A stretch of 64,000 nt of DNA from contig OY992537.1 in NCBI GenBank assembly GCA_963921195.1, positions 16,765,125 to 16,829,124 of the forward strand, in the 5' to 3' direction. The notes under the pieces are model-generated. The model had not been told where the DNA came from. It was given only the letters and a program-made list of their open reading frames with translations, and did no database searches. The translations under genes were made by a program, and so were the position numbers. Numbering within the stretch: position 1 is the first letter of the stretch; each line of letters opens with the position of its first letter. Below are positions 8,662-41,287 of this stretch, one piece after another. Origin of the DNA: Pegoplata infirma. Its lineage: Eukaryota; Arthropoda; Insecta; Diptera; Anthomyiidae.

Positions 8662-9376
8662 GCTCGAGGTAATTTTTTCTTACTAATTAAAACTTTGATA
8701 TTCTAATAGAATGATTTTCAAGAAAATTATTTTTCTGTTTTAAATTTATTTGGTAATATTTGCAAGACTTAACCGACAAGTGTTTTGGAATTTTTCAGAT
8801 TCCATTGTCAAGACTATTTAGCCATATATCACAACCCAGTCGGCAAAATAAATCACACCTGACATACTGCTGACTCTCCCTTTATAAAATTGCTGACATC
8901 TTCATACAATTTTTCAAAATGTCATCAATGACATGTCAGCAGTTGGTCAGCACATGTTTAAACGAATTGTTAGTGGCCACTGATACTGGTGGACATTGCT
9001 GACCAACTGCTGACATGTCATTGATGACATTTTGAAAAATTGTATGAAGATGACAGCGATTTCATAAAGGGAGAGTCAGCTGTATGTCAGGTGTGGTTTT
9101 ATTTTGCCAACTGGGAAGTAGCAAAAGGAATTAAGTAACAAGTAGTTAAAAAAAAAAATAATGCATATTCAACTAAGTATTCCCTAATTGAGAATTAGAA
9201 GAAGAAAATTGTAAATAGTCTTGACAATGTAATCTAACAAATTCCGAAACTGTTGTCGGATAAGTTTTTCAAAAATTACCAACATTAATAAATTTAAAAC
9301 AGAAAAATAATTTTCTTGAAAATCATTCTATGAGAATATCATATTTTTAATTAGTAAAGGAAAAATGACCTCGAGC
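8662..9376. mobile_element. CTCGAG foldback element with TA flanks, carrying a MITE
   Basis: The termini are inverted (GCTCGAGGTAATTTTTTCTT on the left, its counterpart AAAAATGACCTCGAGC on the right) with TA at 8660-8661 and 9377-9378. The arms continue inward as inverted repeats (TAGAATGATTTTCAAGAAAA near 8710, its reverse complement near 9315). The 281-bp MITE 8835-9115 interrupts the left arm. Other ends of this family are at 12180, 15112 and 36841. Confidence 0.65.
8835..9115. mobile_element. CCCAGT MITE copy 1, near-perfect palindrome, AA duplication
   Basis: The arms run CCCAGTCGGCAAAATAA inward and CCCAGTTGGCAAAATAA in reverse, each about 125 bases with few mismatches, so a single strand could fold into one long hairpin. 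AA flanks both ends (8833-8834 and 9116-9117). The related uninterrupted sequence at 361-370 has AA only once, which shows that two bases were duplicated. No coding capacity. Other copies: 39860-40135 and 40677-40957. Confidence 0.85.
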
Positions 9377-9450
9377 TAAAACAAACCTTTTTTTTTAATA
9401 AAAAAAAATAAAAGTTTAAAAAATTTCCTGTTAACAAAATTTATTTAAAA

Positions 9451-10116
9451 ACAAGTAAGAGTGTTAAATTCGGCTGTGCCGAATCTTTTATATCCTTGGA
9501 GGATATAAAAAAAATTGCAGGGGCGTTTTTTTGGAGGGGGGGGGGGGTCGGCATAGTTGGAGGGACACCTGTACCACCTCTATATATGTTTACAAATTAT
9601 TTGTTTATGGTATTTACCCTTAAATAATAAATTTTTATCGTTAATTTTAATTAATTTCTCTAACCACGCCTCTAAAGGGGGGCATCCTGAAAAAATTTGA
9701 ATTTTCTAACCCCCTTGGTCCAAGCGCAGGTCTATGAACATAATATGGCATACAAATGTTACATATGTTGAGCAAAAATTAAAAAAATCTTGTGAAAATA
9801 TCGTATTTTTCAGGGGTCGTTGTAGTTCTTCAAGGGGGAACTTTTTTTCCCCCTGATCCGATGTTGCCCATCTTCGAACTTAACCTTACCAGTAACATAA
9901 GAGATATTCTTGCCCAATTTCAGGGGTCTAGCTCTTTTGGTTTGGACTGCATCGTTATTTCTACAGACGGACGGACGGACATCGCTAGAATGTCTTAGAT
10001 TCTATCATGGATCAATATTATATATACTTTGTGGGGTGCCCGACCGATATTTCGATGTGTTACACACGGAATGACAAAGTGAGTACACCCCAATACTGTG
10101 GTTGGAGGGCATAAAA
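9451..10116 (+). repeat. Head-hairpin repeat, subfamily I, full length
   Basis: Begins ACAAGTAAGAGTGTTAAATT, then ATTCGGC-TGT-GCCGAAT, a G-rich run near 9535, the block AAGGGGGAACTTTTTTTCCC, GACGGACGGACGGACATCGC, CGATATTTCGATGTGTTACA and GGAGGGCATAAAAA. It is one of the most complete copies. A frame over 9792-9998 stays open, as in other copies, but contains no known domain. Confidence 0.8.
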
Positions 10117-10345
10117 ATTCCGTTGAAAAAAATTGTAGTGACAAAAATGTTTCTGAAAAATTTTTGTAAAAAAATATGTTTGTACTTGTTTAAATTCACT
10201 GTGCTAGTCACAAAAATTAACAAGCCGGTCCCCTTGCTTGTAAAGATAATTCCGGTGCATGGAATTCAATGGTGATAGCCGTTTTTCAAAGTTAGCACTC
10301 GTATTCTCGATTTAAAATTTTGAAGCTAAAGTACTACAAAAATTA

Positions 10346-11240
10346 CACCGCTCAACAGTCATTTTCCGGCTTGAATTCTGGTGATCAATTTTAGTAGACT
10401 TTGATCTCCTGATTCCAAATCTGTACTCCAAATTTTTCCATCACGTCCAGATTTTTAGTTATTCACGGTTAAAAATGCGAAAAATGGCGATTTTTGCATT
10501 ATTTGAAAGCCTGCACAGCAGCCATTGAGTGGAATACAAATCTGGTATAAAGCGCAAAAGTATAATTTGTCTATGGTCTCCAACATAGAAAACAATTTTT
10601 TTCTAATTATTGCGTTTGGTTGGGTTACAATTGCGTTTTAAAATGACTCTGTTAAAATGATCATTTTTGTAAAAAAGATAAGGTAGGTAGGTACCTTAGT
10701 TTTTTTTGATATTTTTCAATAAAAAACTAAAAAAAATAAATATTTTACAAATTTAAGTTTTCTGTGTTATATTTCGTATAAACCGGAAGACATCTTTAAT
10801 GGGTTTAAAAGTCTATAAGAAAGAATGAGATTTTGTCTAAATTTTGAGCTCATCACACTAAAGATTGATCATCTGGTTTTTGTTTTTGAGCCTTTTAAAA
10901 ATAGTGCTTTTTCTAATTTTTTTCACAGTGTTTTTTAAAATACGTGTTTGGCCAATAATAGTGCAACAACTTCAAATTATTTTGATCATATATTTGAGAT
11001 CATAGTTCAATTCAACTCTAACGCTTTATACCAGATTTTTATTCCACCCAGTGGCTGCAGTGCAGGCTTTCAAAAATGGCAAAAATCAAGTTTTTTTGCA
11101 TTTTCAACTGCGAATAATTAAAATTCTAGACGTGATGGAAAAATTTGGAGCACAGATTTGGAATCAGCGAGTTAAAATCTTTAAAAATTTTGTATCAAAC
11201 TTCATACCGGAGTCAAAAACCTTCGATTTGTTGAGCGGTG
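10346..11240. mobile_element. Uninterrupted CACCGCTCAACA foldback, TTA duplication
   Basis: It is bounded by CACCGCTCAACA and TGTTGAGCGGTG, with TTA at 10343-10345 and 11241-11243. At 895 bp it is the intact-length counterpart of 1924-3487. The two halves are inverted repeats with conserved blocks (TCACGTCCAGATTTTTAG near 10442, its inverse near 11120). The short open frame at 11051-11278 is only an arm read through. PIF/Harbinger type is inferred from the TTA target. Confidence 0.75.
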
Positions 11241-11784
11241 TTATTTTTTTTCGCTTTTGGAATAGTTTTTATATATAAATTTAGAAAATTCATCGTTTTT
11301 TCGCGAAAAAAAATGTACGCGATAAAAATTTAAATTCCGCCAATTTTTTTTTTTTTTAATTTTGTGTCTGTAGTGTATCATATTCTATACATTTTCATAA
11401 ATTAAAAAAATTTCGCAAATAAAATATTCAGTGATATATATTTTTCTATATTTCTCTTCACATATGTCAACCAGCAGCTGAATTAAAGCATTTTGTATTT
11501 TAGGTTATGTAGAATGTGCTAAAATTTTCGAGGTTTCCTTACATTTTTGTTCATTACTTTTGAACCGTTAAGCCGATATCACTCAAATGCAATGACAAAC
11601 TTGTCAAAACAACATTATATGTTAAGTTATAGTAATATCTGTGTAATATTTTTGTCATGATCGCTTGATCAATTATTTTTTATTTATTCTTTCCATTAAT
11701 TTACAACTCATTTTTAATAAATTCACCCTAACCGAGAACTGGTAACAATGACCGTCGTCTCGTTGTAGCGAAAAAAAACAAATG
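11241..11784. other. No gene recognised
   Basis: AT-rich sequence containing a phrase resembling the interior of the TATACCC-type repeats (CTTTTGAACCGTTAAGCCGA near 11558), so it is probably degraded repeat ahead of the SINE-like piece. Confidence 0.35.
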
Positions 11785-11856
11785 TTCTGGCGGGAATCGA
11801 ACCCACAACCCCCACGTTGAAAGGCTAGCACGCTACCAACTAGCCTACGGGGGCCC
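11785..11856 (-). mobile_element. tRNA-like SINE head with A and B boxes
   Basis: On the minus strand the sequence holds a good RNA polymerase III A box (TAGGCTAGTTGG, 11836-11847) and B box (GGTTCGATTCC, 11793-11803), about 33 bases apart. The T-arm pairs (GTGGG with CCCGC), but there is no 5' partner for an acceptor stem and the anticodon stem does not pair. This fits a tRNA-derived SINE or tRNA pseudogene, not a working tRNA. Confidence 0.55.
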
Positions 11857-11872
11857 CCCCGTCGCCATTTCA

Positions 11873-11945
11873 ACAGATATATTGACAGACGGACATCGCC
11901 AGAATGACTTACAATCGATTACTGATCAAAAATATGTATACTTTA
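11873..11945 (+). repeat. Tail fragment of a head-hairpin repeat
   Basis: ACAGACGGACATCGCCAGAA, then CAATCGATTACTGATCA and TATACTTTAT follow the order of the family's 3' half. The closing GGAGGGTATA is absent. Confidence 0.5.
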
Positions 11946-12383
11946 TATTCACTTAAATAAAATAAGAATTACAATTAATTTAAAATGAAAAATTTTTAAG
12001 TAAGCCCGTTTTAAATCGAAAAGCTTTTCAAAAAAGCTTTTAGTAGAAGTTTTAATTTAAAATTTGATGCTACAATTCTTGAATTAAACTGTACACAATT
12101 AAAAAAAAAAAAAAAGTTTTCATGTTTAAATTAATAAAAATTATTTATTTTGAGAAAGATTTCTCTCGATTTAGATTTAGCTCGAGGTCACATTTCTTTG
12201 CCAAACATTACAATGATATTGTCAAGGTAAACTGGTTTGGTCATTTTGCACCACTTATTCAACACGTGTTTCGATCTCGAAAAATTAACAAAATTATTGT
12301 ATCAAATCATATATAATTGTATAAAAATATTTTTTTTTCTCTAAAAAAAAAATTCATTCATAATATTCCTTAACCTAACTTAC

Positions 12384-12813
12384 CTATAACATACGAATAG
12401 CCATCTAAAGTTAAAACACATTTTCTTGTGGTAGTACCACCAGCCACACTGGATAAACGCATTGATCTACCCATTATAGATTTTGTAAATGCACTCTGAC
12501 CACTGGGACTAGTATCATCATAATTAAGACTTTCTCTGCGCGGACAACTATCATTATTATCAAATTCTGGAGCCGTTTTTATATTAGTTGTTGTCGTTGT
12601 GGTCATTACACCATCCGAAGAATGATCGCGAATATTACGAGTATCGGAGCCGCGGGAACGAGTACGAGCTAAACGTATATCCGAACCACTACAATTAATC
12701 GAAGGATCTGAACCTAATGACTCATTTAAAGATTTTGTAGCTTGTATACCGTCAAGAGTTTGGGATTTTTCACGACGCGGCGATGGTTTTATGGCATCCA
12801 TTTTTTCACTCAT
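12384..12813 (-). CDS. First coding exon of an unrecognised host gene
   Basis: The exon opens at ATG (12813-12811), giving MSEKMDAIKPSPRREKSQ. An in-frame TAA 12 bases upstream (12825-12823) makes this Met the natural start. It runs 143 codons and breaks after one base of the next codon at ATAG|GTAAGT, a textbook 5' splice site; reading on past it gives only three codons and a stop. The protein is hydrophilic and rich in Ser, Thr, Asp and Arg, with a run of six Thr near residue 70 and Arg-Ser patches, and looks disordered. The last 16 residues (RKCVLTLDGYSYVIG) look like the start of a folded domain continuing in exon 2. Base composition is much richer in G+C than the surroundings. I do not recognise the family. 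No later exon is visible down to base 1, so the first intron would exceed 12 kb. Confidence 0.75.
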
Positions 12814-13141
12814 ATTTTGTATTTATTGTTTTTTTAAAGGAAGATACGCGGAAAAGTTATTTTAACCGATTTTTTGTCTATTTAAAATCCATTTTAACGT
12901 TACGAATTTGGCGAAGCGTTGAAGTTTTTGTAGAAATTTTGCTGTCGATAACACCTGATGAAGTTTATGTTATTTATATTATTTTTTCACTTTTTTATGT
13001 AAATTATCTGTTATTGTTTTTCATATTTTTCTTTGAGTGTATAAACTAAAGTTTTAATAAAAATTAAATAAAAAACTTAATAAAAAACTTAATAAAAGAT
13101 TTAAAATAAACACCACTAAGGTTTTTTGTTCACTAAACTGA
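12814..13141 (-). promoter_or_regulatory. Probable 5' leader and possible initiator for the exon
   Basis: The leader is AT-rich with stops in all frames. A TCAGTT motif on the minus strand (13141-13136) matches the arthropod initiator TCAKTY and would give a leader of about 325 bases. A clear downstream promoter element is not present. Just beyond it, at 13205, lies a transposon, so the transcription start could also be farther away. Assignment rests on motif match only. Confidence 0.25.
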
Positions 13142-13253
13142 TTTTTAAATTCTATGGAATTCCAAAAAAAAAAAATAAAAAAGTTCACACTTTTTAACAA
13201 ATTACACAGTGCAACAAACAAAATCGGAATGGAATGAAACCAAAAGCTAATGA

Positions 13254-13913
13254 GAACTTGCAGATGCAGTGTCTACACAACCGGGTTAATTTATTATGGG
13301 TACCAGGACACAACGGAATACATGGAAATGAAAAGGCAGATGAACTCGCAAAACTTGGAGCTGATGGTTTAGGTACCATGGTGCCAGTTTTACCACCACT
13401 TCAACACTATAAACTTAAACGGAATTCCATCAATGTTGCAAAGGCAAACAGGAGGTGGAGAGAACTGACAACATGCAAAATCAGCAGAACTTTGTGGCCA
13501 ACTTATGATCAAGGGAAAACTCAATATCTACTATCACTTACGAGAAGGGAATGCCGAGCTCTGACTGGGATAATAACTGGTCATTGTCTTATCGGCATCC
13601 ATGCCAAGAATATTGGACTTACTTCAGACGCTAGTTGTAAAAGATGCGCTTCACCAGGAGTAGATGAAACGATAGAACACATACTTTGTCACTGCCCAGC
13701 TGTGGCAAGGAGTCGCCGATCCATTACCGGTCAGATAAGTTTCGGTACTTTGGAGGATATAACGCAAATGGATCTTAGGATATTGAAAAGATTCGCAATG
13801 ACTTTGAACGTGTTTAACTTGCACCGCTAGCGGAAAAAAAGTTTTGTGGTACCGCTATGGACCAAGAGGTCTATGCGAGGTGTCAATCGGACACCGCCAC
13901 CCTAACCTAACCT
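13254..13913 (+). mobile_element. 5'-truncated LINE insertion ending in CCTAA repeats
   Basis: AAAAGCTAATGA occurs at 13242-13253 and again at 13914-13925, a 12-base target duplication. Between them lies the 3' end of a non-LTR retrotransposon: RNase H end of the polyprotein, a short 3' untranslated part with GGACACCGCCACC, and a tail CCCTAACCTAACCT instead of poly-A. The upstream ATG at 13234 belongs to flanking DNA. Tail repeats of this kind are known from RNase-H-bearing LINEs. Confidence 0.8.
13255..13830 (+). pseudogene. C-terminal RNase H and zinc-knuckle piece of a LINE polyprotein
   Basis: The frame is open for about 190 codons to TAG at 13828-13830, but lacks its beginning (reverse transcriptase and endonuclease are absent through 5' truncation). 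Near its start is the RNase H signature WVPGHNGIHGNEKADELA, with the conserved His and the final acidic residue. After it comes a Cys/His cluster, CKRCASPG...EHILCHCP, typical of the C-terminus in RNase-H-bearing LINE clades (I, R1, LOA and relatives). The first part of the RNase H fold is missing, so the product could not be active. The intact frame suggests a recent insertion or little decay. Confidence 0.75.
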
Positions 13914-15183
13914 AAAAGCTAATGAAAGTTGATATTTTTCATAACAAAACCTTCACGGCTTTTTTTTAGTGCAGCGCTAGATTTTTTTTACACGCATTTG
14001 AAGTTGGTGAACTTTTATTATAATTATAATAATAATTACTTGAAAGCAGTAAAAGTGGCGTATACTTAATTTTGTAATTGCCATTAAATAACAATCATAC
14101 GCAACGATGCACAGTGTTTTATTCTTAATAATTTGGCAATTCAGTAAGTGGGTACTGGACTGATTGCAGCGAAATTCCTACCGGTTATTGATAACGTAAT
14201 TTCGAGCTTAAGTTTGGACGCTGGACCCCACATGTCCAATAACATCACCACCACGGTCCCCTTACTTAAGACATATTTAGTATACAAACACCTTAAATGT
14301 TTTAAAATCACCAACTTCAAATGCGTGTAAAATTTCAACTTGTATTTGCTTTTGGTTTCATCCAATTCCGATTCGGAAAGTTCGATTTTGTATCACTGTG
14401 TTATTGAAAGAGTTCAATAATACTGTCAAATAAAGACATTGTTACACTGTGCAACACGATTTTGTAACTTTAATGGGACCAAAATAAAATAAAGTTATAC
14501 CAGTAGTAGAACAGAACCCTTGAAGGTTTTGAAAACTTAGTTCGAGTTTTTTATGGCCCACCGAAATTTTAAAATTTTTTTAAAGACGTTTTGAATAAGT
14601 CAAAAAAAATTATATACATAATTCTGAGGTAAATAATGTTTAAAGATGTCTTCCGAGAAATTTAATGGGGGTTCTTTTCGAGGAACATATTAACCCTCTA
14701 TCTCCTACTTTTTGAGGTAATTTTGGTCCTTATTTCAAATATTCTCATTTAACATGCGTTTAAAGGGTTAAAATGTTCTAAAAAAAATTTCTGCATCAAA
14801 TTTCACGGGGTAATCAAGCGCCAAAATTTCGTTCGAAAAGTCCAAAATGTTAAAAAAAAATCAAAACTGTAAATAATTACATAGGGTATAGAGGGGCACA
14901 TTCGCAAGTGGGGCACATTCGCCAGTGGGACACATTTGCCACCCACTTATCTCTTTTTTTTTCATCATCAGGGCCGCTTTAAGGTATGACGGAGCCCTGG
15001 ACCCACAAGAATTTCGCATGACAAAAAAATTTTTTTTACAAATTAAACTCATGTTATTACATGTTTTAAGACAGCGAAATTAAAAAAAATATTCTGAGTA
15101 GGAATATTCTAGCTCGAGGTCATTTTTCTTAGCTTACTAAAACCATAATATTTGTGAACAATTTGGTTTTAATTAGACCTTTT

Positions 15184-15309
15184 CTATCTCAGAATCTGAG
15201 ACTTTTCCTATACGAAAAATGTCTCAGAATCTAAAACTTTTTTTATACTCTCTGAATCTGAAACCTTTTCTATACAAAAAATATCTAAAAATCTGAATTT
15301 TTTTCTATA
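15184..15309. repeat. CAGAATCTGA array, left part
   Basis: About four diverged units with core TCTCAGAATCTGAAAC-TTTT-CTATACGAAAAA. The array resumes at 21641-21720 once the 6.3-kb element 15310-21638 is removed, so the two pieces were one before that insertion. The same unit builds the arms of 24372-27780. Confidence 0.65.
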
Positions 15310-15357
15310 CCCGGTGAAAAATGATACAAATCTATATATATAAAAGAGTTGGGTGAG

Positions 15358-15412
15358 TGAGTGACTGACTGACTGACTGACTGACTGACTGACTGACTGA
15401 CTGACTGACTGA
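15358..15412. repeat. (GACT)n microsatellite
   Basis: About 13 perfect GACT units, 27 bases after the 5' end of the Helitron-like element. Such runs near the 5' end are common in this type of element. Confidence 0.9.
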
Positions 15413-15439
15413 TTCATCATCGCCCAGCCCAAACCGCTG

Positions 15440-16540
15440 AAGCTAGAGACTTGAAATTTGGACTGTAGGTTCACCTCCCGGAATATAGATCCACTAAGGC
15501 TGGATTTTTGCCAGTGTTGATTCTAAGGGGGTAAAAAGGGTAAAAAACTGTACTTTTGGTACTTTTTATATCTTCCGAAATAATGGTCATAGAGACTTGA
15601 AATTTGGACTGTATGTTCACCTCCCGGAACATAGACCCACGAAGGCTGGACTTTTGCCAATGTTGATTCTAAGGGGTAAAAAGGGTAAAAAACTGTACTT
15701 TTGGGGTACTTTTTATACCTCCTGAAATAATGGTCATAGAGACTTGAAATTTGGACTGCATGTTCACATCCTGGAATATAGATTCAGTAAGGCTGGATTT
15801 TTGCCAGTGTTGATTCTAAGGGGGTAAAAAGGGTAAAAAACTGTACTTATGGTTCCTTTTATATTTCCTTAAGTAATGGTCCTAGAAACTTGAAATTTGG
15901 AATGCAGATTCACCTCCCGGAAATCAGGTTCACTAGGGCTGGGTTTTTGCAAATGTTGATTCTAAGGGGTAAAATGTGTAAAAAAGTGTACTTTTGGTAC
16001 CTTTTATATTTCTTTAAACAATGGTCTTAGAGACTTGAAATTTGGACTGTATGTTCACCTCACGAAATATAGATCCCCTAAGGCTAGACTTTTGCCAATG
16101 TTGATTCTAAGGGGATAAAAAGGGTAAAAAACTGTACTTTTGGTACCTTTTATATTTCCTTAAATAATAGTCCTAGAAACTCGAAATTTGCAATGAAGGT
16201 TCCCCTTCCGAAAAAAAATCCACTAATGCTGGGTTTTTGGCCAATGTTGATTCTACGGGGGTAAAATGGGTTAAAAAGTGTACTTTTGGTACTTTTTTTT
16301 ATTTATTGAAATAATGGTCATATAAACTTGAAATTTGGAATTTAGGATCCTTTGCTAAAAAAACAATATGGAAAGATACGATTTGAAAATTTTGATTCTA
16401 AGGGGGATAAAAGAGGTAAAAAGTGTACTTTTGGTACTTTTTTTTATTTCTTAAAATTATGGTCATAGAAACTTGAGACTTGGAATGTAGACTCCTTCGG
16501 TAAAAAAACATTCTAGAAAAAGTAATTTTTGGAAAATGCG
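15440..16540. repeat. Tandem array of about 147-bp units
   Basis: Seven to eight units, each with GACTTGAAATTTGGACTGTA, TTCACCTCCCGGAATATAGA, AAGGCTGG-TTTTTGCCA, TGTTGATTCTAAGGGG and CTGTACTTTTGGTACTTTTT. Successive GAAATTTGGA phrases start near 15451, 15599, 15746, 15892, 16036 and 16182. Divergence rises toward the right end, and weaker units continue past the minisatellite to about 18250. Confidence 0.85.
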
Positions 16541-16560
16541 TTTCTTAGGGGGAACCTTCC

Positions 16561-17313
16561 ATAAAAAGTACCTTTTATAAAAAGTACCTTTTATAAAAAG
16601 TACCTTTTATAAAAAGTACCTTTTATAAAAAGTACCTTTTATAAAAAGTAACTTTTATAAAAAGTACTTTTTATAAAAAGTACCTTTTATAAAAAGTACC
16701 TTTTATAAAAAGTACCTTTTATAAAAAGTACCTTTTATAAAAAGTACCTTTTATAAAAAGTACCTTTTATAAAAAGTACCTTTTATAAAAAGTACCTTTT
16801 ATAAAAAGTACCTTTTATAAAAAGTACCTTTTATAAAAAGTACCTTTTATAAAAAGTACCTTTTATAAAAAGTACCTTTTATAAAAAGTACCTTTTATAA
16901 AAAGTACCTTTTATAAAAAGTACCTTTTATAAAAAGTACCTTTTATAAAAAGTACCTTTTATTAAAAGTACCTTTTATAAAAAGTACCTTTTATAAAAAG
17001 TACCTTTTATAAAAAGTACCTTTTATAAAAAGTACCTTTTATAAAAAGTACCTTTTATAAAAAGTACCTTTTATAAAAAGTACCTTTTATAAAATGTACC
17101 TTTTATAAAAAGTACCTTTTATAAAAAGTACCTTTTATAAAAAGTACCTTTTATAAAAAGTACCTTTTATAAAAAGTACCTTTTATAAAAAGTACCTTTT
17201 ATAAAAAGTACCTTTTACGAAAAGTACCTTTTATAAAAAGTGCCTTTTATAAAAAGTACCTTTTAAAAAAGTACTTTTTATAAAAAGTACCTTTTATAAA
17301 AAGTACCTTTTAC
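16561..17313. repeat. Homogeneous 16-bp minisatellite, about 47 copies
   Basis: The unit is CTTTTATAAAAAGTAC, repeated with only about ten single-base changes over 750 bases. Each unit is nearly self-complementary around GTAC and TATA. The unit resembles ACTTTTGGTACTTTTTAT in the neighbouring 147-bp array, from which it may have grown by slippage or unequal exchange. Confidence 0.95.
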
Positions 17314-18774
17314 AAAAACTAAGGTACTTATGGTACTTTTTATTTATCCTGAAATAATGATCATAGAAACTTGATATTTGGAATGTAGGAAGTGAAAACA
17401 AATTCTGGAAATAGTAATTTTTGAAATTTCCTTTTCTTACGGGGTGGAACGGGTAAGAATTTAAGCTTTAGGTACATTCTAATTTCCGGAAGTAATGGCC
17501 CTAGACTCTTGAAATTTGTAATGTAGGATCATTCGGTAAAAAATATTCTGGAAAAATACTTTTTGGAAATTCCGCTTCTTAGTAGGGTAAAATGGCAAAA
17601 AAAAAGTGTACTTCCGGTAATTTTAATTTTTCTGACGTAATGGAAACTTAAAATTTTGGATGTAAAATTCTTCTGTGAAAACTAAAATTTTGGGAAAAAT
17701 ACTTTTTGGAAATTCCGTTTCTTAACGGGGTTAAAAAGTATACTTTTTGTACTTTTAATATTTGCTGAAAAAATATTCCTAGATAATTGCAATTTGTAAT
17801 GTAGGATCCTTCGGTGAAGAAAAAACATTCTGGAAAAAGTACTTTTTGGAAATTCCGTTTCTAAGGGGGTAATAATGTGTAATTTTGGTACTAATTTTTT
17901 TTTTCTATAATAATTGTCTTAGAAGCTTGAATTTTGGAATGTGTCTTTCGGTGAAAAAAAAAAACAATCTGCTATGCTAAAGTATTTTTAAAAGATTCCG
18001 TTTCTAGAGGTGTATAAAAGTGTGTTTTTTTTATCCTTTTTATACTTCTTGAACTAATGATCCTAGGCAGTAAAAATTTGAATGATGCATTCTTTAGTGA
18101 AAAGATATTTTGGAAAAAGTACTTTTTGGAAATTATGTTTCTAAGAGTCTTAAAGGGCATAAATAAGTGTAAGTTTGGTACTTCTTATATTTCTTGAAAT
18201 AACGGTTCGGAAAAAAAAGGTTTTTTGAAAATTTAATTTTAAGTAGTAAAGGTGGCAAATGGGTATTTCTACCTATCTAACTATTAAAGCCTACACTTAA
18301 AATAATTACTCTGTTAAAAACTCTGTAAAATGACTGTAATCTTAATTCGACAGACATTTGACAAAGTTATCTGTCGAAATACAGATTTTAAGAATATACT
18401 TTGTATTTTCTTGTAACCGAAAAACAAAATTTTATCTGTAATTTTAGTTTTTACTTTGTAATCTCTATTTTATAGATAATAAACAGAGTTTTTTGGTAAA
18501 ATACAGATTTTATACATTTTCTCGTAACCAAAATACTAAATTTCAACTGTAATTTAACTTAGTGCTCTGTAATTAGGGTTGCCAGATACTAGAATTCAAA
18601 TAACTGGAAAATGGAAAAAAATCACCTGGATTTTAAAAAAATAACTGGATTTTTTTTTTTAATAACTTAAAACAAATCGACCGATTTTCAAAAGTAAGAT
18701 ATTTTGGACTACTTTTAGAATAAAACATCAATCAAATGACTGCATTTATTGGCCACGGCAAATTGTGCCCCTTT

Positions 18775-18935
18775 TTAAGCATTTCCGCTACATATTCGAT
18801 CATCTCGAAATGTTGATGTTGACGTCAATGGTCTAAGATTGATAGCGTAGATTTTTCTTTTCAAATGACCCCACAAAAATAAGTCCGAAGTGATAAAATC
18901 GGGAAATCTAGTTGGCCAGTTGAAATCCCCGGGCG
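18775..18935 (-). pseudogene. Mariner/Tc1-like transposase remnant, left mirror copy
   Basis: On the minus strand a short stretch reads NWPTRFPDFITSDLFLWGHL then KRKIYA. This corresponds to the WP-R-SPDL--DFFLWG-LK--VY segment around the last catalytic Asp in mariner-like (IS630 family) transposases. It has lost everything upstream. It meets its mirror copy near 18930, at TGGCCAGTTGAAATCCCC. Confidence 0.55.
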
Positions 18936-19190
18936 ACAATAACTGGCCCTTATCTGCAGGTTTGACCGCTCCAGACTTATTTTTTGGCTTTATTTGTTCA
19001 GCAAAATGTTCATCAAACAATTCTCAGATCATCGAAGATCTCAAGGAAAACATTCATGATTTCAGCACCACTAGAATGCGATATGCTCGAAAAAGTTATA
19101 AAAAAAAGTAGTGAAAATGCAGCAAAAAGGGCACATTTAAAAGTAGTGAAAAGATTTATGTTTTATTCAAAAAGTAGTCAAAAAAAATTA
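18936..19190 (+). pseudogene. Mariner/Tc1-like transposase remnant, right mirror copy
   Basis: On the plus strand the same segment appears again: NWPLSAGLTAPDLFFG, then, after a degraded stretch, QIIEDLKENIHD, and in another frame LECDMLEKVIKK and AAKRAHLKVV. These match the C-terminal tail expected after FLWG-LK. Frame changes occur near 19050-19070. The two remnants are head to head on opposite strands. Confidence 0.5.
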
Positions 19191-24365: not shown

Positions 24366-24371
24366 TGGTAA

Positions 24372-29358: not shown

Positions 29359-29456
29359 ACAAAATCATTAATTTTTAATGTTTTTGTAGATACATTTTTT
29401 GTTCATTTGTTGGTAAAACTAACACAAAAATCATTAATTTTTAATGTTTTTGTAGG
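29359..29456 (+). repeat. Direct repeat of a 30-bp palindromic phrase
   Basis: ACAAAATCATTAATTTTTAA followed by TGTTTTTGTAG appears twice, 64 bases apart. Each copy is partly self-complementary (CATTAATTTTTAATG). It lies inside the TTAA-flanked element. Confidence 0.65.
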
Positions 29457-29984: not shown

Positions 29985-32280
29985 AAATTACATAAATATG
30001 AAATAAATGTGTTATTGATAGTTTTTGATCCAAATCTGAAAAATTTCGACCCAAATTACCTGTTTTTCATATAAGTGCGTTTCGTTTTCCGAAAATTGTG
30101 TATATGTTAATGGGTTGATAGGTGGCACTAGGGTGAATTAATTTTGAAACGAGTTTTAGCCAAATTGAAATGGCGATATCATGAAATCCGTTTCAACGAT
30201 TTCAAAAATATTTTCAGATTTTTATAACAATGTAAAACTGGATTTTTTGGCAATTTTTTTTTTGATTTAAATCGAAAGCTTTAAACAGAATCAAAGCTGA
30301 CCTTTCAAAAACAAAAAATCGAATGGAAAAATTCTAGTATTGTGTACATTTAAATTATATAATTCATCAAATTAAAGGTTTACTTGTTAGCACACCTTCC
30401 CAGTTTATTAAAATCAATACCAATACGCCTCAAATACCTAAACCATCACAATAAATAACAATTTGAAAATGCTATTAAAAGTCCCCCCAAAAAAAAGAGA
30501 TATAAAACAGCTTATCAAAAACAAATGATTGTTTTGTTTGAATTTTTTACAATAATTTTTTGTTATCATTGAAATTATAGGAAATTATTAAAAGGAAAAT
30601 AATTTCCGAATATTAGTATATGCCATACAATTCAAATACAGCCAATAAAATGTATACAAGAAATTTTAAACTCAGAGAGACAATATAAACAGAAAGATAA
30701 TTTTGACATCCCTTCCACAGAAAAAAATATGGGCAAACAAAATTTTGAGTTATCACTTGTTTAAATGTCAAAAAAAAAGTTGAATAATTTTTTAATTGAA
30801 GCAATTAAAAATGTACTCAAAAGTAAATAATTATAATTTAATAGTTTTTCGTTGTTTTTATTCTCTTAGTTTTTTTGAATTCTCATTAATTTTATAGTTT
30901 TTTGTATATATATATAAAAGTTTGAATTCATTTTTATAAAAATTTTTTATGTCTTTAAAATATTTGGTAAAAGTTTGAAATTTTTTTTTTTTTTTTAAAT
31001 GTGAAACTTTTTTAAACGTTAAAAATATTGATAAATTTTAAGTAAATTTTTACTTGGCACAATTAAAAAAACAACAAATTTTGAGTAAAGTTGTAATTGT
31101 ATCAATTAAAAATTTACTAAATTTTTTGGCATACATATAATAAATTTTTATTAAAAGTTTACTCAATACTTTTAAATGGTTTAGTGAAAAAATTTACTCT
31201 ATTTTGGTTTTTAATTTTTTTCTGTGCTCTTCTTACCTCCCTCCAATAACAATATAATTTTTTTTTATAGCCACCTAAAAACAATCAGTGACAATATATT
31301 GTACAAAAAAATATAAAAATAAATATTTTCCAAATAATAACAATACTGATAGTCTTTTGTTAGCAGATGGATGCCACAAGCAAAACTAATTTTTTTTTGT
31401 TTAGTTTTTCATTCTTATGTTCATGACATTGAAGGGGGGCCCGGCATTTTTTTAAAACAACAAAAAATTAAGATTTTATTAATATTTAACAAATTTCAAA
31501 AAAAACTGTGGTGTTTATTTTAAGAAAATAAATAACTAAATAAATAGGAAATTATTCAAAAATATAAATAAAAATATTCATATGAGCAAAAATTTTAAAA
31601 ACAAAAAAGGCTAAATAGGTCAAACTTTAGAAAATAATATAGGGTATTGAAAATTTGCGAAGGCAGCCAATTAACCAATTAGGTATTTAAATGATCACTC
31701 TGTGATTTTCATAATATTTAGAATTTTTTATATGGTTTTTACCGTCCCCATTTTTTTAAGTGGGGTTCACAAAAAGAATTGAAAATTAATTTCAATCACG
31801 ATAAACGCGGTTTCAATAAATTTTTTCGATTGCAACTCCTCCGATAAAGAAAATTGTAATACCAATCACCAAATTAATAGGTGATTAATTGATTATTTTT
31901 TCAAGCAAACATTTTTTGATTTCTTTCACAAATTTGATCAATAAAAAACGTGAAACCAGATTCTTTTGTATATTTTTTCAATTAATGTACTGTTCAAAAA
32001 AAGTTAAAGCAAAAAATCTGGTATGTTGAAAAATTGTAATTCGACAGTAAAAGAAAATAATAAAAATATTGATCAAAACAATGATTGATTCATTTAATTT
32101 TGTTGATTAATAGATTTAATTGAAAATTTTTAGCCAGTAACTTTTTGTGTGTTCGTTTGTATTGAGGGTATTGAGCATTTTTTAGAATATTTACGATTTG
32201 TTCCTCCCTGTATTAAATAAACTTGGTCAATTTCTCTTCAACTTCTAATTTTTGCAAATGTCTGGGCAAATTTTTATTCT
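29985..32280. other. No gene recognised; AT-rich
   Basis: Apart from a small element at 30716-31226 I see unique AT-rich sequence without coding frames, splice-framed exons or RNA genes. Confidence 0.4.
30716..31226. mobile_element. Small CACAGAAAAAAAT-ended MITE
   Basis: CACAGAAAAAAATA at 30716 and ATTTTTTTCTGTG at 31214-31226 are inverted ends. The interior has repeated inverted phrases such as AATTAAAAATTTACTNAA. No clear duplication flanks it. The ACAGAAAA terminus recalls 45722-45968. Confidence 0.45.
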
Positions 32281-32565
32281 TCTAGACTTAAAAATTATGT
32301 GGATCAAATTTGAGGCCAATCAGATTAAATTAGCCTGGCGATCAATATTGTAGATTTTTTAAATTAAAAAAAAATTAAAAAAAACTCAACTGGTCGGAAA
32401 ACGAATATCAAACAAATTAAAATCGATAGAACGGTTTTCGAGATTTCGCTGTTAAAAAAAAAATCTATTTTTTTTCCTTCGCCCTTTCATAGAGCTTTCC
32501 CCTTGGAGCCCTTCGATCAAAGTTTTTTTTGAAAATTTTCACCAAAATCTCTAACCTTTAAGCAA

Positions 32566-33190
32566 ATGGCGCCATGGGTTAAAATTTACAATTCGTCATG
32601 GCTTCGCCATTCTAGTCATACGACTGCCGAGGGCTTATATGTTGAGCTTTTCGCTGCACACAACCACCTTGTGCAACTTGTGAATGAACCAACACATATT
32701 CCGTGTGTTGATGGGCAGTTTCGTAATACCCTCGACCTTTTTCTCACTTCGCTTCCTGACAAATACGAAGTCGAGACCCTTGCGCCTCTCGGAAACTCGG
32801 ATCATAACATCATTTCTGCATCCTTTTCATTTTCTGACCTTCATAGTACTTCAAAACCAGCAACGAAGCGCTCTACTTTTGTATATGAAAAGGCTCGTTG
32901 GGCTGAGCTTAACGTGTTCTTCCAGCATTTTAATTGGAAACTCTGTTTCCTAGATGACAATGTTAACGCTGCTGCAGAAATGATAGTAAATGGGATAATG
33001 CTTGCAATGAAATTATTCATTCCATTGAAGCAAATTTCGACTTAACCAAAACATAAGAGCTGGTTTAATCAGACGTGCCGGAATGCAGTCAGATCCAGAG
33101 AGGATGCGTTAAGTAATTGGCGTAATGATAAAAACTCAGTTACTGACACGTTACGTAAACAGGCGAGAAATGAATGTGCAGACGCGAAAA
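32566..33190 (+). pseudogene. LINE endonuclease C-terminus and linker
   Basis: The frame gives LVNEPTHIPCVDGQFRNTLD, then LFLTSLPDKY and PLGNSDHNIISASF. NTLDL and the SDH motif are the last conserved blocks of AP-endonuclease domains in LINEs; the catalytic N-terminal half is absent. After an in-frame TAA (33043-33045) the same frame continues with HKSWFNQTCRNAV, the usual linker to the reverse transcriptase. A frameshift near 33185 moves reading to the frame of 33174-33497 (TFWPFVKWVKNN, then KANLFADMFA). Confidence 0.8.
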
Positions 33191-33466
33191 GTTTCTTTAC
33201 GAGCAGCGTCTGCGTGCTAAGGTCCTTGCTGCTCCGCGGGGTAGTAAGACCTTTTGGCCATTTGTTAAATGGGTAAAGAATAATACTAGTTCATCCATTC
33301 CAACCCTTATAATGAATGACCAAATATTCACAGACCCGGTTGATAAAGCCAACCTTTTTGCTGACATGTTTGCAATAAATGCGTACTTGCCGGAAAGCAA
33401 TCAACCTCCGCCCGAGCTCGAAAGGGTATCCTCTACTATGTCCAAGATTTTTTTCGAGCGCGTGCA

Positions 33467-34201
33467 GTTAAAAAGGTACTTGAGGATATCAACATAAACA
33501 AGTCCAAGGGGCCGGATGGTATTACGGCTGTTGTCCTAAAACGGTGTGCTTTGTCTCGTCCTTTGGCAATATTATTTAGCTACTCGTACCGGGTAGGAGT
33601 TTTTACCTCTTGCTGGAAGGTGGCCAACGTCCAGCCAATCCCAAAAAAAGGAGAGGCTACAAACCCTGAAAACTACCGCCCAATAGAAATTTGTTCTACG
33701 CTCTCGGAAGTCATGGAGAGCATGATGAATCACCACCTGGTAAATTATCTGGAGTATAATTCACTTTTGTGCGATCGACAGTATGGCTTTCGTAGAGGTC
33801 GTTCTACGGGAGAGCTTATTGCGTTTGGTGTCGGTAGTGATTTCTCTCGATTTATATCGAGTTTTCTTAGAGACCGCTCTATACGTGTTGTTAAAGATGG
33901 GTTCTCATCAGATGAGTTTCATCTGAATTTAGGGGTGCCGCAAGGTTCTGTTCTATATCCTACACTTTTTCTTATTTTTCTTAACGACCTTCTGGGTCTA
34001 ACTTCCAATCCTATCTATTCTTTTGCACATGACAGCAACATTTGTCATTCATTTTCATTTAATCATAGACCAAGCCTTACTGAGGTTGATGCTATAAAGC
34101 AGAACATGAATGACACACTCAATATGACCTTGCGAAAATCTCAGAGTGGGGTCTTGCGAATCAGGTCGATTTTAATGCTCGTAAAACCCAATGTTGTATG
34201 C
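33467..34201 (+). pseudogene. LINE reverse transcriptase with catalytic block deleted
   Basis: Recognisable in order: SKGPDGITAVVLKRC, VANVQPIPKKGEATNPENYR, QYGFRRGRSTGEL, then directly SSFLRDRSIRVV, GVPQGSVL and FLIFLNDLL. The block between GEL and SSFL, which should carry the first catalytic Asp (the AFD motif), is missing in frame, about 50-60 residues. The second active-site box reads FAHD where FADD/YADD is expected, so an essential Asp is His. The frame is lost at 34201. Clearly inactive. Confidence 0.85.
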
Positions 34202-34889
34202 TGACCCACAGACGGCTTGTGGAATCAGCGTCATCTGTATCCATGGGTTGTATAGCTATTGAGGAATCAAACACTCTTCATGTTCTAGGCATGAAAGTCC
34301 AATGTGATGTTCGATGGAACCAACATGTTTTTCAGGTGTCGAAAGAAGCATTCAAGTGTCTTGGTTTTTTAAAACGGTGCAAGAAATACTTCACCCCGTC
34401 TGATCTCACTATTTATACCGCCTATATCCGACCGAAAATGGAATACAACTCCCATATCTGGGCAGTTGCTTCAAGATCTATCTTGAAGCTTCTGGACCGA
34501 TACAAAGGAGTGCGTTGAAGCTCATCAATGACAGTAGGGTATCCAGCTCTATTGACTCATTGGAACATCGTCGGAATGTGGGTTGTGCGTCATTGTTCTA
34601 CCGATATTACCACGGTAAGTGCTCAGCTGAGATGGGTGAACTCATCCCTGAGACGCGGGTGCATACCCGTAGTACTCGCCTTTCCCGCAACTCACATCCG
34701 TTTGTTGTCGACTCTCCAATGTATCGCACAACGCATTACAGAGAAAATTCGTTTCTCGGTCGAACTAGCCGTATGTGGAATAAACTCCCCGCAGAAATCT
34801 TTCCAGTAGGCTATAATTTAGAAAAGTTCAAATTTAATGTCCACAAAAACTACTCCCTCTTTCCTTCTCCTCATAACCTATTTTCCTAA
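34198..34889 (+). pseudogene. LINE C-terminal region in two frames
   Basis: The first piece (34198-34515) reads HVLGMKVQCDVRWNQHV, FLKRCKKYFTPSDL and YIRPKMEYNSHIW, the thumb region after the reverse transcriptase. A change of frame near 34510 leads to LEHRRNVGCASLFYRYYHGK and TSRMWNKLPAEIFP, typical of the jockey/CR1-like C-terminus. The original stop is at 34887-34889. The 3' part GAATCCCCTGAGTGTTGGCT and poly-A follow. Confidence 0.8.
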
Positions 34890-34957
34890 TACCAAAACAA
34901 TGCATTGCATTAGTAGGGGGAATCCCCTGAGTGTTGGCTCAAAGTAAAAAAAAAAAT

Positions 34958-35807
34958 CGGTACAAATTTAAGGCAAATCGGATAAAATTTACCGTCGCGC
35001 CAGGCGATAAAAATTTTGTATTATTGAAAATTTAAAAAATGAATATGCCTTGCGATATATATAATTTATAAATTTTAATGCCCTGAGCACGAATGTAAAA
35101 TGAAACAAAACTTAAAATCTGTCGAAAGCTTTTCGAGACATCGCTATTTAAAATTCCCCAAAAAAAAATTCAGTTTTCCTACGGTCAAAATTAAAAAAAA
35201 CTAAACTTTTTATCTTGACTCTTTTATTGGGCTAAATAAAGCTTTCATTAAAATTAGTTTGAGCAAAATCCGTTAATTTTAACCCGTAGCGCAATTCGAT
35301 CAAGTTTTTAGTTTTTTTTTTTTTTTAAATTTTCACGAAAAACTATAAACTTTGATCGATCAGACAACTTGAACAATTTGAAACCGTCTGATGTGTCTAA
35401 AAATAGGTTTAAAGAAAGTTTTTTTCTCGAGCTCTATAAAGAAGTAAATAGAAAATGTTGTTGATATTCTTTAAAAAAAAAATTAACGTAGGAAAAACTA
35501 AAATTTTTTGGAAATGTTTTGACAAATTTAAAATGGCAATATCTCTACAACCGTCCGACCTATTTAAAAAAAATTTTGATGTTCTTATTCAACATTACAA
35601 AAAATAACACGGAGAAACACAAAAAATGCTCAGCCTACGAATCTGCACACCAAATTTAAAAGTTAGCTTTAGTTTTTGAGATATTTGCAAATTTATTTTT
35701 ATGAAAAATTCCACTTTTTCAAAATTTTTTTTAAATGTTACTCTCACTCTTTTAAAATATTACTCTCACTTTATATTATTTTCAAGTACGGACCTTGGGT
35801 ATTATAA
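34958..35807. repeat. Diverged repeat related to the TTAA element interior
   Basis: Phrases such as CTTGCGATATATATAATTTA, TTTTCGAGACATCGCTATTT and CCCGTAGCGCAATTCGAT recall 28030-28260 and 32400-32515. The LINE at 32568-34957 therefore sits within such a repeat. No borders found. Confidence 0.4.
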
Positions 35808-36820
35808 CACTGTGCTACAAAAAACACAAAATCGAATATACTTTTGAAATGAGGTAGTTAAGGTTGTAGGTGTCGTCGAAATTACCACAAAAATGCCAAT
35901 CAAACTTGCCAGACACCCTCAAATTTGAAAGTTATTGTCAAAAAACGATTTTTTGGGACTTTTCTCACTAAACCACGTGTAACTTAAACATTTTTCAAAC
36001 GATAAAAAGAAAATTAAGAGTTTGCTTTAAATTGCCTTTCGGATAACCCAGGCAAAAAAAAATAAAAAAAATAAACGAACATACTAGGAGGTCGCGTATC
36101 ATTATTTTAAAGGTTTTTGGCCTCCTGAATTCGAATTTGACGTTGAAATTGCGCTATCTTATTAAGTTTTTGATATATCAGTTTATGTTAAATATCTCAA
36201 AAACCTGAAGAGATAGAGCAATTTAAAGGCCCGATTCGGATTCAGAGCGCCAAAAACCTTTAAAAATATTGTATATGACCTCTTATGATAAAATTATTTT
36301 TTTTGCCTGGGATATCTGAACGGCGATTTCCTGCAAAATCTTAATTTTCTTTTTTAGAAAAATTATCACAACTCTGTCAATTGTTATCCGATTTCTTCAG
36401 GATAAAGCTTTTCGTATTCAGAATCAAATTTTCTTTAAAAATGCGTTTATGAATATAAAGGTTGTTAAACGATCTATAGCAGAAAAAAATCAATAAACTC
36501 GAAAAATTTTTAAAAAATAACAAAAAAATTAGATTTAATAGAAAAAATCAATAAATATATTTTTCATATGTGACCAATTCACACACATGGAAAGCCCCAT
36601 CCTTCTTCTATCAAAAACAGTTAAAAAATTTAAAATCGGTTGAAAATTTTCTGAATTACAAAAGGTTTAGTGAGAAAAGTCACAAAAAAACGTTTTTTGA
36701 CAATAACTCTAAAATTTGATGGTCTCTGGCTAGTTTAATGTGCATTTTTGTGATCTACTCGACAAGACCAACAACCTATACTATGTCACGTCAGAAGTAT
36801 TTTTTCATTGTAGCACAGTG
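35808..36820. mobile_element. CACTGTGC foldback, about 1.0 kb
   Basis: CACTGTGCTACAAA and GTAGCACAGTG bound a long imperfect palindrome: AGGTTGTAGGTGTCGTCGA (35870) faces AGGTTGTTGGTCTTGTCGA (minus strand, near 36765), and the centre lies near 36170. TTA follows the right end, TAA precedes the left, so the duplication is degenerate. Its ends match those of 14445-23621. Confidence 0.65.
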
Positions 36821-36850
36821 TTATTAAAGGAAATAATTACCTCGAGCTAG

Positions 36851-39312
36851 ACTAAACCTACTCAAAATATATCAAAAATCTAATTTTTTCTTAGGAAGAT
36901 GACAAAATTTTACCAAAATTGTTACAAAGGATTGAAGAACTGTGCTAGAAATATGTATTCTTGCAAAAAAACAGTGTTTTCCAAAAGTTCGCTCTTATTT
37001 GCGTTGACTGTTTATTTATCGCGTGGGAAGTGTCTAAAACGTCTTCGAAATATTTTTTTAATATTTGAAATATATAATACATTTGGCAAAGCACAATGCA
37101 ACACTTTCACTAGTTATTCTATAGGATTTCCCCCCTAAAATTCAATTTTCTCAATTTCTTCTGAATTGCAATTGGACATTTCTGAATTACAGTGGGGCTT
37201 TCTGAATAAAAATTCGGATTTTTTAAATTTAAATTTTCTTTCGAAATTCAAATTGTAAAGTGTGTAAGCAGATAAAAAATTATATACATTTAATTTATAA
37301 CTAAATTAATGTTAATTAATTTGTTAAATAGTTATCCCCAATAAAATTATATAAATAAAATTTTAAAAGTTCACAAACTTGAAAAAATACAAGGCGTGCA
37401 TTCTGTCGTTTGATTGTTTAAAAAATAAACACAAAAAAAAAAATAATAATAATAAAATAAAAATTGATAAATTTAAATAAATAAACAAAAAAAAATAAAA
37501 TACATGAGATATCTTTTGTTGTTGTTTATTTAAACAAAATCACAGCATGAATATTTACTTTTTGATAATTTTTTGTTATTATAACTTTTTTATAAACAAA
37601 TTAATATCATTTCAATTTTAATTAATTATACGAGTATTATTAGGCATAATAAAACTTTAAAACAGTTTAAGATTTGAATAAATATTTTTTTGTTTATGAC
37701 GGTTCAATTATTTATAAAAATTATGGGTTTTGAAATAATTTTTGAGTTTTATTTAATTTATAAGGTGGTTATTTTTTTTAGTTTTTTTATGTTTTTTAAG
37801 ATTGAAATATTTACAATTTTTGTAACATTTATAATTTGTATAATGGATTTACTACTTTAACATTTATTTTTTTAATTTGTTAATAATTTTTTCATGTATT
37901 TTTTTTTTCAATTTTTAAAATTTATTACTATTTTTATGTATTTCTGAGTATTTTTTAATTTTTTAGTTATTTTCAAAATAGTTTTTAGTTTTTGATTTAT
38001 CAGTTTTTATATTTTTTTCGATTTAAAATTTATAAAAAAGATTTTGTAATGTGCAATTTTATTATAACACTTGTTTTAAGAATTTTTTAATTGATTAATG
38101 ATTTAAAATAATTAAATTTTGTAATTTTCAGTATTTTGTTGTTACTTGTATTAGTTAACTTTTTCCACTAATATTATTATTATTTTTTCTCAGTTAGTTT
38201 AAATTAAACTGTTAAATTATTATTTTTTTTTTAATTTATACATTTGTCTTAATTTCAGTCGATAACCGTTTAATTATTTGTTTGTTTTAATTTTATTCTT
38301 GTTTAAAGATTTATTTATTTGATTTTAAATATACTTTTTGTTTTCCAATAAATTCATTAAATTTATTTTAATATATTTTTAAATAAATTCATAAATTTTT
38401 TATTGAAATTTATTTTTAAAAATTTATTACATTTTTTATAATTAATACATTTTATTTAAAAATTTTTTTTGTGTGTCACATTTTGTTTAACAAAATTTAT
38501 TTACAATAAAATATTTTTTTCAAATCATTAATTATTTTTTCAACTTTTTGAAATTTAAATTTTTCACTTGATTTTTTATTTGATCATAAAACATTTAGTC
38601 ATGCTTTAAACCCGTTCGTAGCGCGTTGCAATATTTTTTTGAAGTTTAAAAAAAACTCTGAATGTTTAATTAATTAATTTTATTTATTTTTTGTTCAAAA
38701 TGCAATTTGTTTTTTATTTTTTAAAAATTAGCATTTTACTGCAAAATAAAATCTAAAATCTGTTATGTTTTGTTTTTCAAAATCTCAGCGTTTTTTACGT
38801 GTATCGGCTGTCGAAGGCTTTAACCGTTAAAAACGTCCGCACATTTTGCCTTCTTGGGATAAACTGGATTTTCGGAGTTTGCCAATTTGCTGGCTGGCAA
38901 TGCGTAAATAAAAACAGACAACAAAACAAAAAAAAACACTGGCACAAAAAAAATATAAACAGAACAGACTAAACGTATGATGGAGCTAAATCAACTAACT
39001 AACTGAAAAGAGAAACAGACAAATTTTTGTTATTGAGCAGACGACCAGCAATAACATGCAGACTGGGCTAACAGACAACAACACACAAGTGAAAAAAGCA
39101 GCCAGTACCATTAACAAGCTTGCCATGTTAGCGTTGTAGTGATTTAGCTAGCAGTTTTTAGACGTATTTATAAATGCTTATTTAATTAATTTTTTAGTAA
39201 TTGAAAATTTTTACCTTCTTTTTCACCAATATAATTTATCTCTTTCTTTCTCTTTCCGATAAGGGGAAAAATTATAAAAAAAAATTTCAAGGTCACTGTT
39301 AGTCCTCTGCTA
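36851..39312. other. No gene recognised; mostly non-repetitive AT-rich DNA
   Basis: A very AT-rich block (37200-38750) is followed at 38760-39135 by more balanced sequence with GTGTATCGGCTGTCGAAGGC, CTTCTTGGGATAAACTGGAT and GCAGACTGGGCTAACAGACA. I see no open frame or RNA gene in the latter; it is the best stretch of apparently single-copy DNA in the window. Confidence 0.4.
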
Positions 39313-40386
39313 GCGGTTTTACACCATTTTCAATTGTATTTTAAAAATTTCCAAATGTATTTTAAAATTGTCCAAATGTATTTTAAAACTGTCCAAATAT
39401 ATTTTGAAATTGTCCAAATTTATTTTAAAATTGTCAAAATATATTTTAAAGTTGTCCAATTAAATTTTAAAATTGTCCAAATGTTTTTTAAAGTTGTCCA
39501 AATTAATTTTAAAATTGTCTGAATATATTTTAAAATTGTCCACAAGTATTTTAAAATTGTTTAAATGTATTTTAAAATTGTCCAATTGTAGTGTAAAATT
39601 TTTCAAATGTATTTTAAAAATTTCCAAATGTATTTTAAAATTCTCCAATTGTATTTTAAAATTGTCAAAATGTAGTTTAAAATTGTCCAAATGGATTTTA
39701 GAATATTCCAAATGTATTTTCAAAATTGTCCAAATGTATTTTAAAATACAATTAGACAATTTTGAAATACATTTGGATAATTCTAAAATCTATTTGGAAA
39801 ATTTTAAACTACATTTGGACAATTTTAAAATACAATTGGAGAATTTTAAAATACATTTGCCCAGTTGGCAAAATAAAATCACACCTGACATACTGCTGAC
39901 TCTCCCTTTATGAAATCACTGACATCTTCATACAATTTTTCAAAATGTCATCAATGACATGTCAGCAGTTGGTCAGCAGTGTCCACCAGTATCGTTGGCC
40001 ACTAACAATTCGTTTAAACAACCGCTGACCAACTGCTGACATGTCATCGATGACATTTTGTAAAATTGTATGAAGATATCAGCAATTTTATAAAGCGAGA
40101 GTCAGCAGTAGGTGTGATTTTTTTTGCCGACTGGGTGGAAATTTTTAAAATACATTAGGAAAATTTTAAACTACATTTGGACAATTTTAAAATACATCTG
40201 CACAATTTTAAAATACATATGGAAAATTTTAAACTACATTTGGACAATTTTAAAATATATTTGGGAAATATTAAAATACATTTGGACAATTTTAAATACA
40301 TGTGAACAATTTTAAAATACATTTGGACAATTTTAAAATACATTTGGAAATTTGTAAAAAACAATTAGAAATGGTGTAGTTTGCGG
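39313..40386. mobile_element. Foldback-type element of 20-21-bp tandem units
   Basis: The left arm (to about 39742) repeats ATTTTAAAATTGTCCAAATGT about 20 times (unit shown split: ATTTTAAAATTGTCC + AAATGT). The right arm repeats its inverse, ACATTTGGACAATTTTAAAA. The ends GCGGTTTTACACCATTTTCA and, inverted, CGCAAACTACACCATTTCTA match. The CCCAGT MITE copy 2 interrupts the right arm. Long open frames on both strands are by-products of the repeat. Confidence 0.75.
39860..40135. mobile_element. CCCAGT MITE copy 2, TG duplication
   Basis: The same palindromic MITE as 8835-9115, from CCCAGTTGGCAAAATAA to GCCGACTGGG, with TG at 39858-39859 and 40136-40137. The host is a tandem unit, so the original ATACATTTGGAAATTTTTAA can be read from neighbouring units and contains a single TG. 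Confidence 0.85.
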
Positions 40387-40663
40387 TTTTTGAAAAAAAA
40401 AATATTTGTAAAAAAAATATTAATTTTAAAAATTTTGTAAAATGAAGCCAATTAAAAAAAAAAAAAATTAGCTGATCTATTTTGGTCCATGGATGCATTT
40501 CAAAAGCCAGAAAAGTTAGATTTTTATATATAAAAAAATATATTTTATTTCAATGGTGCATAAGGCCGATTTAAGTACAGGAAAACTAATAATAAAAAAT
40601 TGGTGGGTATTTATAACTATCCGCGAAGTGCAAAAAAGCAATTTGCCATAAAAATCAAAATTG

Positions 40664-41287
40664 CCCAATAAGCACACCCAGTTGGAAAAATAGAATCACA
40701 CCTGACATACTGCTGACTCTCCCTTTATGAAATCACTGACATCTTCATACAATTTTTCAAAATGTCATCAATGACATGTCAGCAGTTGGTCAGCAGAGTC
40801 CACCAGTATCTGTGGCCACTACCAATTCGTTTAATCAACCGCTGACCAACTGCTGACATGTCATTGATGACATTTTGAAAAATTGTATGAAGATGTCAGC
40901 AATTTTATAAAGGGAGAGTCAGCGGTATGTCAGGTGTGATTTTTTTTGCCGACTGGGCATTTAAAATTCAAGTGCAAATCAAGTATAAATCAAGTGTAAA
41001 TCAAGCCCTTATTTCCAGTCTATGCTTGATTTATACTTGAATTACACTTGAATTCAATAGCATTCTCCAGCAAAACGGATACTTGAATTCAAGCGCTGTT
41101 TTTACGCTTGAAAACCAGGGAAAAGGCTGTAAAAACAGGGCTTGAATTCCAGTGTCCGTTTTGCTGGAGTATGCTATTGAATTCAAGTGTAATTCAAGTA
41201 TAAATCAAGCAGGGGCTGGAATTTAGGGCTTGATTTACACTTGTTTTATACTTGATTTGCACTTGAATTTTAAAGTTGCTTATTGGG
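40664..41287. mobile_element. CCCAATAAGC MITE, TG duplication
   Basis: CCCAATAAGCA and inverted TGCTTATTGGG bound arms rich in TTCAAGTGCAAATCAAG and AAATCAAGTGTAAATCAAG. TG occurs at 40662-40663 and 41288-41289. The arms are good inverted repeats with GAATTCAAG phrases at the centre. The left arm holds CCCAGT MITE copy 3. Confidence 0.75.
40677..40957. mobile_element. CCCAGT MITE copy 3, CA duplication
   Basis: Runs from CCCAGTTGGAAAAATAG to GCCGACTGGG with CA at 40675-40676 and 40958-40959. The opposite arm of its host MITE reads, inverted, CCCAATAAGCAACTTTAAAA, and the interrupted arm restores CCCAATAAGCACATTTAAAA with a single CA, confirming the two-base duplication. Confidence 0.85.

Follow-up and report, generated by a model that had tools for sequence, protein, structure and literature searches.

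A palindromic MITE that occurs three times in a 64,000-nucleotide stretch of the Pegoplata infirma genome (the window) very probably represents, in this dipteran genome, a non-autonomous TRC family, TRC being a branch of the cut-and-paste transposons known as CACTA/EnSpm (CMC). Its ends start with CCC, it is flanked by a variable two-base target duplication, and the genome encodes many transposases of the family that TRC elements carry. As we found no coding element with the end of the MITE, its filing under TRC rests on the ends, the duplication, and the fact that the genome encodes this enzyme family. TRCs ('Transposons Related to CACTA') were described in animals by DeMarco et al. in 2006, with a proposed CCC core and a Transposase_21 domain, and their 2-bp direct repeats were backed by paralogous empty sites (PMC1636069). 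A TRC is thus recognized by CCC ends and a variable 2-bp duplication, which explains both features that had puzzled an earlier sequence-only reading of the window. That reading had offered CMC-type (CACTA) elements as the nearest known case and guessed correctly, the relevant branch being the animal TRCs. The novelty it implied does not hold, because 5'-CCC ends with variable 2-bp duplications have marked animal TRCs in print since 2006 (PMC1636069). The family itself is new, and we found no description of it in the literature. It belongs to a group that is already described, and its existence is not surprising.

The MITE is an inverted repeat of about 281 bp, in which two arms of about 118 bp enclose a non-palindromic middle, and its length leaves no room for a transposase gene. 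Its consensus ends are CCCAGTCGGC on the left and CCCAGTTGGC on the right. We searched the whole assembly (1.384 Gb, 813 contigs) for the 16-base end motif CCCAGTYGGCAAAATA and counted 732 + 693 = 1425 exact occurrences, against 0 for the reversed control motif. A DNA search for copies gave 1358 first-look candidates, and the best 40 of these were scored; all 40 are full-length. Adding two further window copies resulted in 42 distinct copies, since window copy 1 is itself among the 40 (L001) and was counted once. These copies differ from the consensus by 0.9% on average, in a sample biased toward full-length copies near window copy 1 (the best-scoring 40 of 1358). All 42 near-consensus copies have CCC and GGG at their extreme ends. 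The terminal 6-mers are CCCAGT/ACTGGG in 41 of them and CCCAGT/TCTGGG in the other. Subterminal repeated motifs are a feature of CACTA elements, and CTGAC is found five times in each 118-bp arm of the MITE. This repeat could be a binding site, which is only suggestive because some 5-mer was counted at least five times in 35 of 1000 dinucleotide shuffles. A scan of viral contigs with the 34-base end of the MITE gave 0 matches.

The three window copies lie where the sequence-only reading had placed them, with CCCAGT...ACTGGG ends and the dinucleotides AA, TG, and CA each present on both sides. The same reading had paired each copy with an unfilled site inside the window, and this stands for copies 1 and 2 and, for copy 3, in length only. 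Copy 1 (281 bp, 8835..9115, plus strand, arms of about 118 bp) is flanked by AA at 8833..8834 and 9116..9117. When its flanks are fused with a single AA, they align to the paralogous region at 201..560 (plus strand) as ACAAGTAGC, with AA once at 363-364; the upstream part of the alignment is gapped. Copy 2 (276 bp, 39860..40135) lies within a 21-bp tandem array and is placed on the minus strand by its best hit, the element being palindromic. In plus-strand letters, TG precedes it at 39858..39859 and follows it at 40136..40137. Its flanks fused with a single TG match, with 0 mismatches across the junction, the array around 39600-39660 read on the opposite strand. This counterpart (39600..39660, minus strand), where the array is inverted, has TG once, and neither of the other two empty sites in the window is as good. 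Copy 3 (281 bp, 40677..40957, minus strand) sits in an arm of another inverted-repeat element, between CA at 40675..40676 and CA at 40958..40959 (plus-strand letters). Its flanks fused with a single CA align to 41129..41290 (minus strand), where the host repeat has its opposite arm and the flank outside it. That unfilled arm reads AC where copy 3 has CA, and therefore supports a duplication length of two but not its letters.

The surroundings of copies 2 and 3 have a structure of their own. The 21-bp array (approximately CAAATGTATTTTAAAATTGTC) extends over 39331-40371; its units run in both directions and make up a large inverted structure, which copy 2 breaks. The host repeat of copy 3 spans 40594-41547, with outer arms at 40594-40637 and 41504-41547 and inner arms at 40960-41105 and 41129-41274. 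Elsewhere in the window, a 16-bp tandem array of ATAAAAAGTACCTTTT occupies 16561-17318 (47 copies, 97% matches), and a similar 15-bp unit is repeated at 6110-6385. Broken pieces resembling a non-LTR retrotransposon, with reverse transcriptase, RNase H, and a weak endonuclease match below the cut-off, are found at 32566-34889 and 13234-13830. A 147-aa frame at 12370-12813 on the minus strand has fly relatives without a named function (Ceratitis capitata, Drosophila persimilis, Drosophila arizonae, and Polypedilum vanderplanki are the four named among 53 hits) and, at E up to 0.1, matches no Pfam domain.

Genome-wide, an exact 2-bp match between the flanks was found in all 42 sampled copies, while a 3-bp match and a 4-bp match were each found in 1 of 42. 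Two copies (L032 and L033) share their flanks and were counted once, leaving 41 independent insertions. An exact 2-bp duplication is thus present in 41 of 41 independent near-consensus insertions and involves 11 different dinucleotides: TT (12), TA (7), AA (5), AG (4), AT (4), CA (3), TG (2), and GA, TC, CC, and CT once each. For comparison, random pairing of left and right flanks gave a mean of 6.5 matches in 41. Among five more diverged or rearranged copies, in L060, L061, and L066, three have an exact duplication (AC, TT, TA) and two have none, their flanks being TC/AT and CT/TT. The earlier proposal of a CCCAGT-ended MITE with a variable two-base duplication is borne out by these data. A longer duplication, a fixed motif, or ends extending further, which it had listed as outcomes against itself, do not occur among the 41 insertions.

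The genome also carries the enzyme. We found nine matches to Transposase_21 (PF02992) in this genome and none in 14 control genomes. With one TRC protein as query, and 55 of 1252 candidates scored, there were at least 61 match rows, 17 of which cover 700 or more query residues in a stop-free open frame of 740 aa or longer. Of four TRC proteins scanned, three pass the Pfam cut-off and the fourth is a fragment (23.8 versus 28.6 bits). Named relatives, among the 120 of 310 that were listed, include proteins from Haematobia irritans, ants, braconid wasps, thrips, and a damselfly. We aligned eight transposases, three from this genome and five chosen among the 120 listed relatives. The residues D154, D242, and E494 and the pairs C261-C264 and H470-H474 (numbering of the L042 frame) are invariant in all eight. 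The signature of CMC-type transposases is D-D-E with C(2)C and H(3-4)H (PMC12730594), and the TRC proteins of the host match this published signature with D-D-E, C(2)C, and H(3)H (8 of 8 aligned).

One of these transposase frames lies in an element with CCC ends. A stretch of C5 (C5:6993252-7005725, assembled from L050, L042, and L051) contains, at its positions 4465-11725, a 7261-bp element with a Transposase_21 frame. It ends in CCCGAGTAAAAA/TTTTTACTCGGG (CCCGAGT type) and lies between two AA dinucleotides. On C4, a second copy starts from this CCC as well, preceded by different DNA, and its right end lies beyond the stretch examined. The C4 copy (C4:118306449-118318922, L052, L043, and L053) holds a 1400-bp insert at 6623-8022 of the reverse complement, which ends in CCCAGC/GCTGGG and is flanked by AT left and right; the C5 copy provides the empty site, with AT once. 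This insert is another CCC-ended non-autonomous family. Hence, CCC ends and 2-bp duplications characterize more than one family in this host, and at least one of these families is tied to Transposase_21. Inside the C5 element, at about 10290-10523 of the C5 stretch, lies a sequence related to the window MITE but diverged from it (78-87% in pieces); the C4 copy has it too.

We looked for an autonomous element with a CCCAGT[C/T]GGCAAAA end and a transposase gene among transposase flanks, motif pairs, and atypical ends, and did not find one. The long transposase-coding copy with the same ends that the sequence-only reading had proposed to seek was therefore absent from the loci examined. Four transposase loci outside the L042/L043 family, namely C (L044), D (L047), L058/L059, and L062/L063, have no MITE-like ends in flanks of 3.25-4.5 kb. 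Locus C has unpaired CCCGAGTAAAAA ends, and the other three have no convincing CCC pair. Around two less closely related transposase loci (46-48% identical), both in the part of C1 that the listing covers, no exact 16-base motif lies within 10 kb, among the 100 of 1425 motif places listed. From the same 100 places, motif pairs 3.2 kb and 0.8 kb apart were considered as long copies and turned out to be neighboring MITEs. A pattern excluding the usual continuation of the end returned 43 ends, many of them by eye MITEs with small indels, and three of the 43 were examined (L064, L065, L066). L066 holds a MITE, one arm of which is shortened, and L065 is a solo end beside a host gene that we take to be chibby-like; both were rejected as long copies. 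L064 (C1:322697108-322700157) contains, at 763-3000 on the minus strand, a 2238-bp element with matching 10-bp CCCAGTTGGC ends and an AA duplication. It holds an unrelated high-copy repeat of about 495 bp and gave no transposase match at E up to 0.01.

Other origins for the MITE have to be weighed against this evidence. It might come from another CMC-type lineage with 2-bp duplications (Mirage, Plavaka-like, or classic 5'-CAC EnSpm) and have drifted to a CCC end. The animal CACTA elements ENS1_Cis and CMC-NA also duplicate 2 bp (PMC6004678), as does PlavakaA (PMC12730594), and two of the four TRC proteins scanned have a sub-threshold match to Plavaka. However, those lineages have 5'-CAC or TGT/CATCA ends, while the first seven bases of the MITE are those published for the Aedes TRC (PMC1636069) and the host has many TRC transposases. 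We thus regard such a drift as improbable. In their unmodified form, classic CACTA/EnSpm and Chapaev both have 5'-CAC ends, and Chapaev in addition has a 3-4-bp duplication (PMC4079192, PMC6004678). The canonical CACTA end is absent from the MITE, and with its CCC ends and 2-bp duplication we rejected both classic CAC-type CACTA/EnSpm and Chapaev.

The autonomous partner was not found at the loci examined, as might be expected if an undescribed transposase superfamily with variable 2-bp duplications mobilized the MITE. Yet its end features already fit a described group present in the genome and nothing requires another enzyme, so that we consider this very improbable. It seems just as improbable that the autonomous partner belongs to an undescribed, non-TRC lineage of transposases in which CCC ends and a variable 2-bp stagger evolved by convergence. 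Two further groups can be set aside almost with certainty. An ISL2EU/PHIS element would also duplicate two bases, but in ISL2EU the duplicated bases are AT, set in A|AT|T (PMC4482050), while AT accounts for 4 of our 41 insertions; the dinucleotide spread refutes this assignment. A Tc1/mariner-type element would duplicate TA, as seen in 7 of the 41 insertions, and is refuted by the other 34, where the duplication is not TA.

For a TRC family, the anatomy of the MITE and what is known of the group suggest how it may move. The TRC transposase of an autonomous relative, acting in trans, would bind the arms of the MITE and excise it. The MITE would then be joined to the target at two points offset by 2 bp, and filling in this offset would leave the two-base duplication. 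No fixed motif would govern the choice of target. An inverted duplication that copied one end of a longer element is the probable source of the palindromic shape.

In animals, a CCC end together with any two duplicated bases thus points to TRC-type CACTA elements. Our analysis adds an abundant MITE family to this group, with 41 insertions that have exact 2-bp duplications, compared with 7 of 14 SmTRC1 copies in 2006 (PMC1636069). It also adds a fly genome in which many Transposase_21 frames are long and open, which is of use for annotation.

Among known systems, the closest are the TRCs of Aedes aegypti, Tribolium castaneum, and Schistosoma mansoni (SmTRC1), which, as described in PMC1636069, all start with CCC and have variable 2-bp direct repeats like the MITE. 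The Aedes aegypti end is given there as CCCAGTCAAC; the left end of the MITE agrees with it in 8 of 10 bases, the first seven being identical. The published TRCs are coding elements of 4.5-9.2 kb with the Transposase_21 transposase (PMC1636069), whereas the MITE is a palindrome of about 281 bp, with arms of about 118 bp, whose own coding partner was not found; for the MITE, the Transposase_21 transposase is in the host genome. Spongebob of Hydra (EnSpm-4N1_HM, CCCAGCCAACATTGAC) resembles the MITE in its 2-bp duplication and was likewise assigned to TRC; its Hydra end is reported as CCCAGCCAAC, and it has non-autonomous relatives in insects (PMC4298943). Its TIR differs from that of the MITE beyond the first five bases, and we liken the two by their end features. 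The MITEs CMC-NA_1 and CMC-NA_2 of wasps and polydnaviruses, and ENS1_Cis, are CACTA-type with 2-bp duplications as in the MITE, but have 5'-CAC ends where the MITE has CCC (PMC6004678). Finally, ISL2EU (PHIS) shares with the MITE a duplication of two bases, but has AT only and uses another transposase (PMC4482050).
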